From the NCBI GenBank assembly GCA_902552755.1, contig CACDHV010000007.1, positions 1 through 49,289 on the forward strand: a DNA stretch of 49,289 nucleotides. Direction: 5' to 3'. Under the pieces are notes generated by a model. That model had not been told where the DNA came from. It saw only the letters and a list, made by a program, of their open reading frames with translations, and made no database searches. Position 1 is the stretch's first letter. Every line of letters begins with the position of its first letter. Below are positions 7,735 to 37,705 of this stretch, in pieces. The position numbers and the translations under genes are program-made. The DNA comes from an uncultured Pelagibacteraceae bacterium (lineage in GTDB: Bacteria; Pseudomonadota; Alphaproteobacteria; Pelagibacterales; Pelagibacteraceae).

Positions 7735-8667
7735 ATGTCAAAAAAAATTGATGAATTATGCACTGTTGTTTTGCCGACTTTTTTTCCTGGGGACGAAATC
7801 TTTGAAAACATTAAAAGTATTCCACCAGAACTTAATATTTTAATTATAGATAATAGCTATAACAACAATTTAAAACATAAAATTAAACATTATTCGAATT
7901 GTATATATTTTAATATTGGCGATGTTGGGTTAGGAAAAACTTTTAATTATGCTTTAGAAAAAGTAAAAACTCCTTACATGTTATTAACTCAACCTGATGT
8001 AGTTTTAAGAAAAGATTGTATTAAAAACTTAATTATTGGTTTAGAAAAATATAAAAATGCAGGAATGGTTGTCCCGATTGTTTATGACAATTATAATTAT
8101 AGTAAATATGACTTTTATGATCTTAAATATTCAAAACAAAAAAAAGAATTTTTGTATAAAAAGAAAAAAAAACAAGTTAGTCAGTTACCCAGTGGTGATT
8201 TTTGTGTAGATGCGGTAAATGCAACTACTATGTTGATTAAGGTAGATGCATTAAATAAAATCGGTGGGTGGGATAATAATATATATGTGTATTTAGAAGA
8301 TATAGATATATGTCTAAGACTTACCTTAAATGGATTTAATATTATTAAAATTTCAAATGCGATTGTTGATCATAAGGGGTGGAGTTCACATTTTGACGAG
8401 ATAAGACCGTCAATGAACATAAGTAGAGTATGGCATTTTACTTGGTCATCCCTATATTTTGATAATAAATTCTGTAGAAAATCTATGGTATTAAAAAAAA
8501 TAGCAAAATTAATAATTTTATGTTTAGTAAAAAATATTTTTAATTTGTTATTATTTAGAATTAACAAATTTAAGGTTAACAATATTAAGTTATCAGCTTG
8601 TTTTGCATTTTTATTTAATAAAGGTTCATATTTTAGGGTAGAACATAAATTTAAAAATGAACTTTGA
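7735..8667 (+). CDS. Family 2 glycosyltransferase (rhamnosyltransferase-like)
   Basis: GT-A fold transferase expected to add a sugar to a lipid-linked or surface glycan. The N-terminus [13 protein letters not shown] is the nucleotide-binding strand. The acidic motif in [12 protein letters not shown] (about residue 88) sits at the DXD position. [19 protein letters not shown] (about residues 180-198) is the acceptor/catalytic ED.D.C.R motif seen in WbbL-type rhamnosyltransferases. The C-terminal segment around 250-270 is hydrophobic and may attach to the membrane. It begins 5 bp after the epimerase gene, so the pair is an operon, and it ends 4 bp before tRNA-Ser. Confidence 0.82.
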
Positions 8668-12271: not shown

Positions 12272-14061
12272 TGAAGTTTTTTATTTTCAAATAATCCACT
12301 TAGTTGATCAATCATAACATCCCCTAGTTCTTGTACATCTGAGATTTTTATAGCTTTTTTATAATATCGGGATACATCATGACCAATTCCAATAGCTAAT
12401 ATTTCTACTTCACTTTTGTTTTCAATAAATTTAACAATTTTTTTCAAATTTTTTTCTAAAAAATCTCCTGAATTAACTGATAATGTTGAATCATCGACTG
12501 GTGCTCCATCTGAAATAACCATAAGGATTTTTCTTTCCTCTTTTCTTTTTTTTAATCTATTAAATGCCCATGTTATAGCTTCACCATCAATATTTTCTTT
12601 TAATAAACCCTCTTTTAGCATCAATCCCAAATTCTTTTTTGATTGTCTCCAATGAGAGTCTGCACCTTTGTAAATTATGTGTCTTAAATCATTAAGTCTT
12701 CCAGGATTTTTCATTTTACCCAATCTATTCCACTCTTGGCGACTTTTACCACCTTTCCAATTTTTCGTCGTAAAACCGAGTATTTCAACTTTAACCGAAC
12801 ATCTTTCCAAGGTTCTAGATAAAATATCAGCACATATTGCAGCTATTGTTATTGGTCTTCCTCTCATTGACCCGGAGTTGTCAATTAAAAGTGTCACAAT
12901 TGTATCTTTAAAGTCTAGATCTTTTTCTTTTTTAAATGACAATGAATTATATGGATCAATGATAATTCTAGGTAATTTTGAACTATCTAACAATCCCTCT
13001 TCTAGATCAAATTCCCATGATCGATTTTGTTTTGCCATTAATTGTCTTTGTAATTTATTTGCTAACTTAGTAATTAAATCTTGAAAACTTGTAAGCTGTT
13101 GGTCCAGATTTTTTCTTAGTTTTTGAATTTCTTCAGCAGTGTCCAAACTTTCTGCTTTAGCAACTTCATCAAATTCAGTAGTAAATATTTTGTATTCTTT
13201 ATCGCTTATACTTAAATTTTTTTTTTGTATAATATTTTCTGACTCGGCGTCCTCGTTATTTTCACTACCAAGCTGATCTTCAAGTCTAAATTCATTTACG
13301 TCATCCTCGCTATCCATTCCTTGGCTTATATTTTCATCTTCGCTTGTTTTGCTAGAATCATTATTCTCATTTTCCTCATTGTTGTTTGAATTATTTTGAT
13401 TTTGCGTATCATCATTTTCATCATTTTCTTTTTCAGTTGTGTCATCATTTTCAAATATATCCATACTTTCTAAAATTTCAGAAAACTTAGCATTATACAC
13501 TTCTTGATTTTCTAGATTTTGGTTTAAAAATTCAAAATGTTTATCTATTGACTTATTAAAATCTTTCTCCCAAAATTTAAGAATTTCTTTATTTTCTGGG
13601 TATAATTCGACATTAAAAAATTTGTTTGTCATATAAATTTCAAAAGCATCAACAATATTTGTATCTTCTTTTTTTGTTATTTTTTCTTGCTTAAGATGTT
13701 GAAGTCTATTTTTATAATTTTCTTTAAAATTTTTGGAAATTCCTTTTAGCATCTCTGAACCAAGTAGTTCATATCTCACCTTTTCTGCTAGCTGGTAGAG
13801 TGTTCTGCAAGAGGGATTTTGTGGATTGTTTTTATCCAATAATTTTCTGTCTGAAAATCTTCTTTTTAAAGCCTCAGAGTCTGTTTCAGCCCTTAGTTTC
13901 TTAAATTGATTTTTATCATTAATATTGTCAATTTCCCCAATATCATAAACTTTTTCGTCATTTTTTTTATTTTTGACAACCTTATAGTCATCTGAAATCA
14001 CTTTGTAAGTTGATTGAAGGGCTTGTTTGAATTTTTCTTTAATACTATCTTCTTTGTTCAT
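12268..14061 (-). CDS. cobT: CobT-like VWA-domain protein (cobaltochelatase subunit family)
   Basis: Homologue of CobT, which together with AAA+ CobS drives metal insertion by CobN in aerobic B12 synthesis. Order: a basic N-terminal region, a long very acidic low-complexity stretch (about residues 190-290), and a C-terminal von Willebrand A domain with the MIDAS DNSGSM (starting about Asp394) and [10 protein letters not shown]. 597 residues. The ATG at 14061 overlaps the cobS stop by one base (TGATG), so the two are coupled. No cobN or other B12 gene is in the window, so the chelatase function is inferred from family only; a CobST chaperone for another target is possible. Confidence 0.88.
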
Positions 14062-34090: not shown

Positions 34091-34303
34091 ATGAGTACAT
34101 TAAAAGGAAAAGTAAAGTGGTTCAACGGTAAGAAGGGCTACGGGTTTATAGAAAGAGAAGACGGAGAAAAAGATTGTTTCGTTCATGCAAGCGCAGTTCG
34201 TGAAGCAGGACTTCGTTTTTTGAATGAGAACGACGCTGTAGAATTTGAAATTCAGGACGGAGATAAAGGTCCAAGCGCAGTGAATTTAAAGAAAACTTCT
34301 TAA
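34091..34303 (+). CDS. Cold-shock domain protein (CspA family)
   Basis: Single OB-fold RNA chaperone that melts mRNA structure. [19 protein letters not shown] contains RNP1 (KGYGFIE), and DCFVHASAV contains RNP2. 70 residues, normal length. Monocistronic: flanked by tRNA-Phe 118 bp upstream and tRNA-His 231 bp downstream, with its own TATAAT and two inverted repeats after the stop. Confidence 0.96.
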
Positions 34304-34323
34304 AATTTATTTCATTTAAAATT

Positions 34324-34370
34324 TTGTATAGGAATAAAAGTAGGTAAACCCTATGAATATTCCTATACAA
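34324..34370. repeat. 12 bp perfect inverted repeat 3' of the cold-shock gene
   Basis: TTGTATAGGAAT (34324-34335) and ATTCCTATACAA (34359-34370) are exact reverse complements with a 23-base loop. The loop itself holds TAGG (34341-34344) and CCTA (34350-34353), so a nested or alternative hairpin is possible. It starts 20 bp after the stop codon. There is no T-run after it, so it is not a textbook intrinsic terminator. Confidence 0.75.
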
Positions 34371-34379
34371 TACACACTT

Positions 34380-34399
34380 GCATTTTAAGTTTAAAATGC
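34380..34399. repeat. Second inverted repeat 3' of the cold-shock gene
   Basis: GCATTTTAA (34380-34388) mirrored by TTAAAATGC (34391-34399), giving a stem of about 7 bp with a small loop. Follows the larger repeat by 9 bp. The rest of the spacer to tRNA-His (34400-34534) shows no gene, only A/T-rich sequence and a GCTGGCTTGCAGC element near 34463. Confidence 0.5.
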
Positions 34400-34518
34400 T
34401 ATTCAACCGTCATGATTAAAAATAGTAAAATTTTCGTATTTCACAAAAGACATCATTTTCATGCTGGCTTGCAGCTAGCTATTTAACTATTTTAAAATTT
34501 AAATTTAACTCTAATTAG

Positions 34519-34526
34519 TATAAAAT
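34519..34526 (+). promoter_or_regulatory. Possible -10 for the tRNA-His-hisS-hisZ-hisG transcript
   Basis: TATAAAAT ends 8 bases before the mature tRNA-His 5' end. No clear -35 is visible. It is the only promoter-like element close to the tRNA and would drive the downstream histidine genes from the same start. Confidence 0.35.
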
Positions 34527-34534
34527 AACAACAG

Positions 34535-34609
34535 GCCCTGGTGGTGAAATGGTTATCACGAAAGTTTGTGGAACTTTAGTTTTTGGTTCAATTCCAAGCC
34601 AGGGTACCA
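34535..34609 (+). tRNA. tRNA-His (anticodon GTG), non-canonical acceptor end
   Basis: Acceptor GCCCTGG pairs with CCAGGGT, so the first pair is G1-U72; the discriminator at 34606 is A and CCA is encoded (34607-34609). D stem GTGA/TCAC. Anticodon stem AAAGT/ACTTT closes loop TTGTGGA, giving GTG. T stem TTTGG/CCAAG. Most bacterial tRNA-His have G-1 paired with C73; here a G exists at 34534, but position 73 is A. The CCA ends 4 bases before the hisS ATG. Confidence 0.95.
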
Positions 34610-34613
34610 AAAA

Positions 34614-36008
34614 ATGAATAAAGAAAATAAATTAATACCTGGGCTACCGCCGGGATTTGAAGATCGTTGGGACAAGAAACTTATTCTCAAAAAAAAGCTG
34701 TTAACAGTAATTGAGAATAATTTTATTAAGTTTGGTGCAGAACCGCTTGAAACACCATCGTTTGAAGTAAGCGAAAATATAGGATCTTTTCTAGCAGAAG
34801 ATGAAGCTAATTCTATGTCTGATGTATTTTCATTTAAAGATGGAGAGAAAAATATTACGCTTCGATATGACTTATCTAGCCCTCTAGCAAGATTTGTTGC
34901 ACAAAATAATCAAGAGTTACCATCAATTTATAAAAGATATGCTATTCAAAATGTATTTCGTAACGAAAAGGCAGGCAATGGAAGATATAGAGAATTTTTA
35001 CAGGCAGATTTTGACATTGTAGGAAATGTTAATTCATCACAAGCTAACGCTGAACTTTGTAATTTAATATCATTAACACTTTTAGAATGTGGATTACTGA
35101 AAGATCAGTTTACAATCAATGTAAGTAACAGAAAAATAGTTCAAGGCTTACTAGATGAATTACAAATAACTGAGGAAAAACAATTAAAAGTTATTAGGGC
35201 AATTGATAAACTTGATAAGCCTGGATTTGGATTAAAAGGTGTAGAGGACCTTTTGAGAAAGGAAAGAAAAGATACTAGTGGTGCTATTACAAAAGGTGCA
35301 GACTTAAATGATAAGCAGGTTTCTCAAATATTAGATTATTTAAAAATTAAAGATTTAAATGAACTAAAACAAAAATTAAAAAACTCATTATCACAAGAAG
35401 GAATAAAAGAATTAGAAGACTTTTTTGAGGTCCTTGGATATGGATCAAACTTAGATCAAGTCAAAACCAACTTCACAATTGTCAGAGGCTTGGCGTATTA
35501 CTCTGATTTCATCGTTGAAACTAATTTAAATTTTAAAGTTACAAATAATAAAGGTAAAGAGGTAGATATTGGCAGTATTTGTTCGGGTGGAGCTTATGCA
35601 AAACTTATATCAAGATTTAAAGGGGTTGATATTCCAGGTACAGGTATAAGTTTTGGAGTAGATAGACTTTTATTTGCACTATTGCAGCTAGAACAAATCG
35701 AATTAGACGATCAAAAACCAGTTTTAGTGTGTGTGATGGATCAAAAATACTTAAAAAACTACTACGAAATTTTAGATCTTTTAAGAAAAAACAATATTAA
35801 TTCAGAAATATTTTTAGATAATAAAAAAAATCTTGGTAAGCAGCTTACTTTTGCAAACAAACGCCAATTACCAGTTGCGGTAATCTGTGGAGAAAATGAA
35901 TTTAAAGATAATACAGTGACCATTAAAAATTTAAAGGGTGTAAAGGGTGAGAACAACAAAACAATTCCCAAGAAAGATTTAATCGATGAAGTCAAAAAAC
36001 TTATCTGA
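34614..36008 (+). CDS. hisS: Histidyl-tRNA synthetase
   Basis: Charges tRNA-His. Class II core: motif 1 region near GAEPLETP (about 41-48), motif 2 NVFRNEKAGNGRYREFLQADFDIVG (Arg116), the histidine motif RGLAYY (from about Arg291, usually RGLDYY), GSICSGGAYAKL (usually GGRYDGL), and motif 3 GTGISFGVDRL. A C-terminal anticodon domain follows (PVLVCVMDQ). 464 residues from ATG 34614; earlier in-frame starts fall inside the tRNA and are rejected. The only SD-like bases (AGGG, 34601-34604) are inside the tRNA acceptor stem. hisZ overlaps the end by 23 bp. Confidence 0.95.
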   Translation: MNKENKLIPGLPPGFEDRWDKKLILKKKLLTVIENNFIKFGAEPLETPSFEVSENIGSFLAEDEANSMSDVFSFKDGEKNITLRYDLSSPLARFVAQNNQELPSIYKRYAIQNVFRNEKAGNGRYREFLQADFDIVGNVNSSQANAELCNLISLTLLECGLLKDQFTINVSNRKIVQGLLDELQITEEKQLKVIRAIDKLDKPGFGLKGVEDLLRKERKDTSGAITKGADLNDKQVSQILDYLKIKDLNELKQKLKNSLSQEGIKELEDFFEVLGYGSNLDQVKTNFTIVRGLAYYSDFIVETNLNFKVTNNKGKEVDIGSICSGGAYAKLISRFKGVDIPGTGISFGVDRLLFALLQLEQIELDDQKPVLVCVMDQKYLKNYYEILDLLRKNNINSEIFLDNKKNLGKQLTFANKRQLPVAVICGENEFKDNTVTIKNLKGVKGENNKTIPKKDLIDEVKKLI

Positions 36009-37035
36009 AAATATACTCAAATCTTTAAAATCAAGTGGATTTGATTATATAGATTTAGACACAGTAATTCCAACCAATTTAATTCTCGAGAGATCTGGGG
36101 AGTCATTTAGAAGTTTAATTTTTTCATTTATGGATCAGAATGGAAAGGAAATTTGTTTAAGACCTGACTTAACCATTGCTTCATGCATTAAATATCTAAA
36201 TCAAAAAAAAAAGAGATCTTCAAAAGTATTTTATAATGGTCAAGCATTCAGAAAAGTTCAGAAAAAAAATGAAAAAATTATAAGAGAACAAATAGGTTTT
36301 GAGATAATAGGATCAAAAAATGAAAAGAGAGATGATAAGCAAATAATAAATACTGGTATTAAAGTTTTAAATAAATTTAGATATAAGTCTGGGAGTATAA
36401 CAATTGGAAATGTAGAAATTTTTCACTTATTGATAAACAAATTAGATATTCCAAAAAGGTGGAAATTTAGATTGCAAAGACATTTTTGGAGAGAGACTTA
36501 TTTTAATGAATTATTAAGACGTTTAGAGACTAATTCAGATGTTGATGAAACTATCGTTGAGTTAGATAAAAAAAGATATTTTAAAATGTTTAAACAAAAT
36601 CAAAATAGAAATATAGCAGGACGTTCCCTTAAAGAAATACTGATCAGATTTGACAACAAAATTAAAGACCCTAGAAGACAAGTAAAAGGTCAAAATGTAG
36701 TAAAGATTATAAGAGATTATTTAAAAATTAATTGCAAAATGAGTAGTGCAGCAATTACTCTTAATACTTTTTTTAAAAAAAATAAAATAAATCTTATTGT
36801 TGCAAAAAATTATTTTCCAATCACAAAAGATAAAGTTTCAAAATTAAATGTAAATTTTTCATCTTCTTTTGGAAGACATCTGGAATATTACACTGGTATG
36901 GTATTTAAAATTACAATAAATTCAAACTCTAGAAAAATTCAGGTTAATGGGGGTCGTTATGACAATCTTATTTCTGATTTAGGATCTTCAAAAAAGATCC
37001 CAGCAGTTGGAGGTGCAATAAGTCTAAATGATTAA
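35986..37035 (+). CDS. hisZ: ATP phosphoribosyltransferase regulatory subunit
   Basis: HisRS-like paralogue without aminoacylation activity that pairs with short-form HisG. The class II core is visible: ICLRPDLTIASCIKYL (about 59-74), YNGQAFRKVQ, REQIGFEIIG, and SSSFGRHLEYYTGMVF near the C-terminus with GGRYDNL. No C-terminal anticodon domain. 349 residues. Position between hisS and a short hisG supports HisZ over a second synthetase. It overlaps hisS by 23 bp and hisG by 8 bp. Confidence 0.92.
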   Translation: MKSKNLSENILKSLKSSGFDYIDLDTVIPTNLILERSGESFRSLIFSFMDQNGKEICLRPDLTIASCIKYLNQKKKRSSKVFYNGQAFRKVQKKNEKIIREQIGFEIIGSKNEKRDDKQIINTGIKVLNKFRYKSGSITIGNVEIFHLLINKLDIPKRWKFRLQRHFWRETYFNELLRRLETNSDVDETIVELDKKRYFKMFKQNQNRNIAGRSLKEILIRFDNKIKDPRRQVKGQNVVKIIRDYLKINCKMSSAAITLNTFFKKNKINLIVAKNYFPITKDKVSKLNVNFSSSFGRHLEYYTGMVFKITINSNSRKIQVNGGRYDNLISDLGSSKKIPAVGGAISLND

Positions 37036-37705
37036 AATTGGTATTCCAAGCAAGGGTCGATTAAGAAAAGATACTCTAAATATATTTAAAAGTAAAAAGC
37101 TCAAAATTCTATCAGAAAGAGGCGATAGGGATCTATTTGGATATATAAAAGGAAATAAAAATATTAAAATTATTTATCTTCACGCAAGAGAAATTATAGA
37201 AAGATTGGGTGATGGATCTCTAGATATCGGTTTTTCAGGATATGATTTGTTAAAAGAATCTGAATTAAGTATACAAAATAAAGTTACTATTGCAAAAAAG
37301 CTAGAATACGGACATGCAGTTTTAGTATTAGCGGTGCCTGACGAGTGGATTGATATTCAGACTCTTGCTGATTTAGAAGAAATTTCTTTTGATTTTAAAG
37401 ATAAAAAGAAAAGTAGAATGAGAGTTGCAACAAAATATCCAAATTTAACAAGAGAGTTTTTATTTTCAAAAGGTGTAACTCAATTTAAACTAGTTCCATC
37501 TCTTGGCGCAACTGAAGTATATCCATTCACTGGTTCGTCAGAAATTCTATCAGATATAACTAGTACAGGAGAAACTTTACGTGCAAATAATTTAAGAGTC
37601 TTAAAAGATGGAAATATTCTTAAAAGCACTGCAATTTTAATGTTTAATAAAAAATTGAGTAGCAAAAAAGGTTTGAAGAAAATTTTAAACATACTTAGCT
37701 CTTAG
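37028..37705 (+). CDS. hisG: ATP phosphoribosyltransferase, short form
   Basis: First step of histidine synthesis, joining ATP and PRPP. IGIPSKGRLRKDT (about 3-15), LGDGSLDIGFSGYDLL, RVATKYPNLTREF and LGATEVYPFTGSSEILSDITSTGETLRANNL (PRPP site) are diagnostic. 225 residues: the short type that needs HisZ, which is encoded directly upstream with an 8 bp overlap. Confidence 0.97.
   Translation: MIKIGIPSKGRLRKDTLNIFKSKKLKILSERGDRDLFGYIKGNKNIKIIYLHAREIIERLGDGSLDIGFSGYDLLKESELSIQNKVTIAKKLEYGHAVLVLAVPDEWIDIQTLADLEEISFDFKDKKKSRMRVATKYPNLTREFLFSKGVTQFKLVPSLGATEVYPFTGSSEILSDITSTGETLRANNLRVLKDGNILKSTAILMFNKKLSSKKGLKKILNILSS

Follow-up and report, generated by a model that had tools for sequence, protein, structure and literature searches.

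A predicted histidine leader-peptide attenuator ahead of the tRNA-His–hisS–hisZ–hisG unit of SAR11 bacteria

We analysed a 49,289-nucleotide stretch of DNA (the window: contig CACDHV010000007.1 of assembly GCA_902552755.1, a genome 74% complete) from an uncultured Pelagibacteraceae bacterium of the SAR11 group, in which the genes for tRNA-His, histidyl-tRNA synthetase (HisRS, hisS), hisZ and hisG follow one another on the forward strand. Upstream of the tRNA lies a short, histidine-codon-rich reading frame with a hairpin at its last histidine codon. On sequence evidence, we consider it probable that this leader is a peptide attenuator that senses charged tRNA-His and governs the whole tRNA-His–hisS–hisZ–hisG unit. 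A sequence-only reading of the same DNA had noticed the four nucleotides between tRNA-His and hisS and proposed that tRNA maturation is coupled to synthetase output there. Its observation is confirmed and its interpretation partly supported: tRNA-His and synthetase output could plausibly be tied to each other, but by way of the histidine leader upstream, which that reading overlooked. Comparisons drew on a family set of 174 loci, with the window counted and its duplicate L001 excluded. The set includes 80 loci on genome contigs, the 80 best relatives in that collection, which belong to Pelagibacteraceae, Pelagibacterales or Pelagibacter, and 60 further stretches hand-picked from the listed matches with HisRS identity down to about 45%. 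Because two of the collections (L002–L081 and L082–L110) may share species, counts are given for 153 distinct stretches and 132 distinct proteins. Outgroups were a sister family of the Pelagibacterales (11 loci with HisRS) and alphaproteobacteria at class level (27 loci compared).

The leader frame of the window has four histidines in seven codons, and 3 of 20,000 dinucleotide shuffles of the region gave a frame as rich. Two other frames of the window, 13386–13490 (+) and 8177–8224 (−), have TTG-type starts and are equally rich, probably by chance; richness alone is therefore no proof, and recurrence is the stronger point. Among 169 family loci, 83 have four histidines in seven codons, 25 have three in seven, 55 have two in six and 6 have none by this rule, compared with 2, 3, 27 and 315, respectively, of 347 random places drawn from these loci. 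At least two histidines in six codons are present in 163 of the 169 family loci (108 with at least three in seven) versus 32 of the 347 random places. The wording of the core differs between lineages and its theme is constant (HKRHHFHAG, THRHHFHAG, VHTHFHAG, STHRICFHSL and HTHHHTHAKH), and CAY triplets in 127 distinct leaders number 424 in the leader frame, itself picked for histidine, and 70 and 115 in the other two frames. As in leaders of the hisL kind, a short frame with clustered histidine codons stands before histidine genes, and we predict that it is translated. The frame might instead encode a histidine-rich peptide with a role of its own, for example in metal binding, and lie beside hisS through operon history. 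The retention of a histidine-rich core in different wording across many lineages would suit such a peptide, but all three codon positions vary to about the same degree in the region 5′ of the core, the hairpin is placed at the last histidine codon and the leader precedes hisS in two families, leaving this explanation extremely unlikely.

The position of the hairpin recurs together with the leader. Of 71 distinct 48-mers, 63 have a stem of 5–9 base pairs that begins 1–3 nucleotides from the start of the last histidine codon, and its arms covary between lineages (GCTGGC:GCTAGC, ATAGCC:GGCTAT, GCAAGC:GCTTGC, ATGGCT:AGCCAT and GCTAAGC:GCTTAGC). In 128 of 141 distinct regions the hairpin site is the 24-mer that folds best, and T makes up 56% of the 12 nucleotides 3′ of the hairpin, versus 34% of the region. 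In the window, the hairpin is present in the fold of positions 34404–34534. Two other RNA structures were considered and set aside: a pairing of AAAAUAGU with ACUAUUUU in the window fold, which by eye is not kept in L041, and a T-box, for which RF00230 scored 9.9 bits against a gathering score of 93.

Histidine leaders also precede hisS outside the family. All 11 sister-family loci have the gene order hisS–hisZ–hisG and a histidine-rich leader (for example MFNFKHHHYHI) about 91–104 nucleotides upstream of hisS, with a strong hairpin 3′ of the leader stop whose arms again vary; the leader frames of L205, L207 and L208 were missed or mischosen by our script, and the hairpins of these three were judged by eye. 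tRNA-His lies between leader and hisS in none of these 11 loci, and about 1.4 kb upstream in three of them, so a histidine leader before hisS occurs both with and without tRNA-His. A conserved C-rich stretch (for example ACCCCC or AACCCC) also follows the leader in these loci (L201–L211). At class level, we found no convincing leader among the 27 loci and no tRNA in the fetched flank of any of them; frames with at least three histidines occur in 8 of the 27, with the histidines scattered, and we take them as chance.

The synthetase of the window contains no histidine in its 464 residues, where 6.4 would be expected from the 1.39% histidine content of 44 window frames; of the 35 window proteins with 200 or more residues, one other likewise lacks histidine. 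Across the Pelagibacterales, HisRS is free of histidine in 145 of 145 loci, comprising 114 of 114 in the family, 11 of 11 in the sister family and 20 of 20 that are more divergent. These correspond to 132 of 132 distinct proteins, which are related sequences and not independent cases, with identity to the window HisRS down to about 37%. Other histidine proteins of the family loci do contain the residue (2–4 in HisZ, 1–3 in HisG and 5–9 in HisD), and 27 other alphaproteobacterial HisRS proteins have 0–10 histidines, counted from the first aligned residue. The absence of histidine from every sampled HisRS of the order is a simple sign that the enzyme may stay makeable when histidine is short.

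In the mechanism that we propose, transcription would start 5′ of the leader and the leader frame would be translated. When charged tRNA-His is plentiful, the ribosome would pass the histidine codons, the hairpin would form behind RNA polymerase and fewer transcripts would continue. When charged tRNA-His is scarce, the ribosome would stall at the histidine codons and, judging from geometry and general ribosome footprints, mask the 5′ arm of the hairpin, allowing transcription to proceed into tRNA-His and hisS–hisZ–hisG. Lacking histidine, HisRS could be synthesized during the shortage itself, and 3′ maturation of the tRNA would release a nearly leaderless hisS message. SAR11 bacteria are among the most abundant bacteria and are known for having few protein regulators. 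If the proposal is correct, they would possess a cheap loop that adjusts tRNA-His, HisRS and the opening step of histidine synthesis to the level of charged tRNA-His, and a tRNA gene would be placed under amino-acid attenuation.

Several observations speak against attenuation of this kind. Codon-position variation among 58 distinct leaders is only weakly coding-like, with the part 5′ of the core varying about equally at all three positions, and the L132 leader has a single histidine. The hairpin starts 8 nucleotides on in 2 of the 71 48-mers and is absent by our rule in 6, the T tail is weak in some lineages (3–5 of 12), and a strict terminator scan returned no terminators in the window. The whole leader RNA folds no better than shuffles (z −0.03), no competing anti-terminator is apparent in the window folds, which were not searched systematically for alternative structures, and no Rfam histidine leader matched in a cmscan of the window or of 34300–34640 with E up to 10. 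One of the 27 other alphaproteobacterial HisRS proteins, L217, also has no histidine and lacks such a leader, so the histidine-free enzyme and the leader need not be linked. A promoter scan reported none for the leader and did not report the TTGCAT that we mark by eye, and the conserved TATAAA block 5′ of the tRNA could serve as a promoter whose transcripts would bypass the leader.

If this TATAAA block is a second promoter, the leader governs only part of the transcripts. In the strongest form of this alternative, a constitutive tRNA-proximal promoter drives tRNA-His and hisS, the four-nucleotide spacing is ordinary compaction, and the leader and hairpin belong to a separate upstream RNA or affect a minor share of transcripts. 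Conservation of TATAAA just 5′ of the tRNA argues for it, as do the similarly tight spacing of 5 of the 25 tRNAs of the genome and the lack of Shine–Dalgarno (SD) enrichment in the window. The alternative leaves unexplained the run of histidine, and not of another residue, that precedes both tRNA-His–hisS and the hisS of the sister family, and the promoter-like match that the scan gave, TTTAAA-17-TAAAAT at 34498–34526, does not stand out from shuffles (1 found, mean 2.2). We judge this alternative unlikely, if the most serious of those considered.

The seam between tRNA-His and hisS is conserved throughout the family. In the window, the encoded CCA ends at 34609, AAAA follows and the hisS ATG is at 34614, exactly as had been described from the letters alone and as ARAGORN places the tRNA. 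A hisS start farther downstream is rejected, as the HisRS alignment of relatives begins at this same ATG (80 genome-contig loci). tRNA-His lies exactly four nucleotides 5′ of hisS in 78 of the 80 genome-contig loci by ARAGORN, and cmscan finds it in the remaining two, L059 and L076, at 48.3 and 47.0 bits. The pair is also kept in the 60 hand-picked stretches. In total, ARAGORN or cmscan places tRNA-His immediately 5′ of hisS in 172 of 174 family loci; at L138 it is tRNA-His-like by sequence pattern alone, without an ARAGORN or gathering-level Rfam match, and L162 is truncated by a contig end. Adjacency is far above chance within the family, and its loss in close relatives, which would have told against the sequence-only reading, is not seen in close or distant ones. 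The gap is 3–7 nucleotides in 144 of the 153 distinct stretches (3 in 1, 4 in 122, 5 in 18, 6 in 1 and 7 in 2) and 23–48 nucleotides in 9, with the gap of L145, which has no plain ACCA end, varying with definition; the spacer is AAAA in 114 of 153. As that reading also held, four nucleotides leave no room for a separate promoter, or for a terminator, and hisZ and hisG follow hisS: the order hisS–hisZ–hisG holds in 108 of 113 family loci, and the other 5 show hisS–hisZ within the stretch examined. Spacers of 23–29 nucleotides occur in L140, L142, L143, L144, L148, L150, L159 and L160; several long spacers resemble small hairpins by eye, and the loops of those in L160 and L144 contain GGAG or AGGA.

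The seam is nevertheless mostly a matter of genome compaction and less special than it first appears. In the window genome, 5 of the 25 distinct tRNAs are followed, 3–7 nucleotides past their end, by the start of an ATG frame 60 or more codons long (Gln 3, Leu-TAA 4, His 4, Pro 6 and Met 7). The only purine-rich site before hisS had been placed in the tRNA, and AGGG at 34601–34604 is indeed within the 3′ acceptor strand CCAGGGT (34599–34605). That strand is found in 64 of the 153 distinct stretches, and others have acceptor strands without such a site, including CCCGTGT (12), CAGCTGT (7), CTGCTGT (5) and CTACCGT (3). A core SD (AGGA, GGAG or GAGG) is present in 4 of 42 window upstream regions versus 8 of 126 within-gene controls, and mean anti-SD pairing is weaker upstream of window genes than in controls (−0.95 versus −1.39 kcal/mol), with starts taken as the first ATG, which blurs the signal. 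With SD sites hardly commoner than in controls, a hisS without one is not exceptional in the window. The RNA from leader to hisS folds no more stably than shuffles (z −0.34). We therefore rejected the acceptor-stem SD switch as the main explanation: its AGGG is not conserved, SD sites are hardly enriched and the fold is no more stable than those of shuffles.

A broader version holds that one RNA serves either as tRNA or as hisS message, decided by processing at the seam or by HisRS binding the attached tRNA and masking its own start codon. Among 8 single-contig relatives, RNase E is above its cut-off in 8, RNase Z in none (weak matches in 7) and RNase PH in 3; if RNase E matures the 3′ end, its cuts may land near the hisS start, which leaves room for such a choice. 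The SD-like bases are not conserved, however, 9 of the 153 distinct stretches have gaps of 23–48 nucleotides and comparable seams precede other genes of the window genome, making this alternative very improbable. A composite, in which the leader reads charging, a cut in the A-rich seam yields tRNA or HisRS message and not both, and histidine-free HisRS bound to the attached tRNA blocks the start codon, would close the circuit on one RNA and balance tRNA, enzyme and charging; the tRNA-His of that transcript is likely to be the only one, and we regard the composite as doubtful. Leader attenuation requires no separate switch at the seam. So short a spacing is in keeping with a compact genome that makes no clear use of SD sites.

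The tRNA itself has derived features. In the window, position 73 is A (34606), the acceptor begins with G1:U72 and no G−1:C73 pair is templated; across the 78 loci where ARAGORN calls a tRNA-His, the base just 5′ of it varies between G, A and T. At the elbow, by position numbering that we assigned and in counts that include duplicates, T55 of the T-loop occurs with G18 G19 of the D-loop in 153 of 172 loci and G55 in 18, all with A18 G19; L153 was not assignable. The 18 fall into 10 classes, whose first members are L059, L076, L115, L127, L129, L138, L141, L150, L151 and L163, which suggests that the G18–U55 contact was exchanged for A18–G55 several times in tRNA-His. Genome G005 (a single contig, 99% complete; locus L260) has 32 Rfam tRNAs, of which ARAGORN typed 31, none as tRNA-His; the one left untyped is the A18/G55 tRNA-His 5′ of hisS, which is therefore likely to be the sole tRNA-His of that genome. 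L153 carries a very diverged tRNA-His at 368–438 (cmscan 45.0 bits, not called by ARAGORN), 48 nucleotides 5′ of hisS, with no GG in its D-loop and the end GCCA.

Feature coordinates are collected in Table 1. Upstream of the leader, the inverted repeat 3′ of the cold-shock gene is possibly the terminator of that gene, setting it apart from the leader; the family alignment shows a different hairpin here in other lineages.

Table 1 Features of the tRNA-His–hisS region in the window
Feature	Position	Strand	Evidence
Cold-shock protein gene, upstream neighbour outside the unit	34091..34303	+	PF00313, 93.3 bits (cut-off 27)
Inverted repeat TTGTATAGGAATA...TATTCCTATACAA 3′ of the cold-shock gene	34324..34370	+	Read from sequence
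TTGCAT, candidate −35 of a leader promoter, uncertain	34378..34383	+	By eye, alignment of 49 representatives
Histidine-rich leader frame MIKNSKIFVFHKRHHFHAGLQLAI, 24 codons, stop included in coordinates	34412..34486	+	
Histidine core, codons 11–17 (H K R H H F H)	34442..34462	+	
Hairpin GCTGGCT-TGC-AGCTAGC, −8.2 kcal/mol, abutting the last His codon	34463..34479	+	Folding
T-rich tail TATTTAACTATTTTA 3′ of the hairpin	34480..34494	+	
TATAAA in family-conserved block just 5′ of tRNA, candidate tRNA-proximal promoter	34519..34524	+	
tRNA-His(GTG), G1:U72, A73, encoded CCA at 34607–34609	34535..34609	+	ARAGORN; Rfam RF00005, 60.9 bits
Spacer AAAA, 4 nt	34610..34613	+	
hisS, ATG at 34614, HisRS of 464 residues without histidine	34614..36008	+	TIGR00442, 326.7 bits (cut-off 286.75)
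hisZ, overlapping hisS	35986..37035	+	NF008953 best, 351.6 bits (below cut-off 384); PF13393 above cut-off
hisG, overlapping hisZ	37028..37705	+	TIGR00070, 180 bits (cut-off 75.75)

Earlier work touches parts of this arrangement. Derived A73 tRNA-His/HisRS traits were reported in 7 of 8 SAR11 strains (PMC3937112), and the window tRNA-His resembles that alphaproteobacterial pair in having A73, G1:U72 and no fixed G at −1; the main text of that report does not use the words operon, synteny or adjacent, and the leader and the adjacency are not treated there under those words. A search for structured RNAs in Pelagibacter intergenic regions (PMC2704228) has a table headed as excluding regions that bear tRNA or rRNA, and its main text contains no word beginning with 'his'. 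In Bacillus, histidine leader peptides were predicted by comparison before a hisS paralogue (hisS*) and hisZ (PMC2965389); the likeness lies in a leader of histidine codons before these genes, the difference in the host (Firmicutes) and in a unit without a tRNA-His gene, and SAR11 hisS is not mentioned in the part of that paper available to us. In the portions of the open-licence literature that we could consult, we found no recognisable description of a histidine leader before SAR11 hisS or of a histidine-free HisRS.

Among known systems, a close counterpart is the leader-peptide attenuator hisL of the enterobacterial his operon. The SAR11 leader resembles hisL in being a short frame that contains a run of histidine codons, ends in a hairpin and stands before histidine genes, but it has fewer histidine codons, precedes a tRNA gene and a synthetase, and has no Rfam histidine-leader match, competing anti-terminator or strict terminator found. 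In E. coli, pheST is under leader attenuation, providing a synthetase operon controlled through a leader peptide for the cognate amino acid; there the amino acid and organism are different and no tRNA gene lies between leader and synthetase. Operons that combine tRNA and mRNA are represented by the tRNA genes before tufB in E. coli, where a tRNA is likewise followed directly by a coding gene. In SAR11, by contrast, the gene that follows encodes the tRNA's own synthetase, and a histidine leader stands in front.
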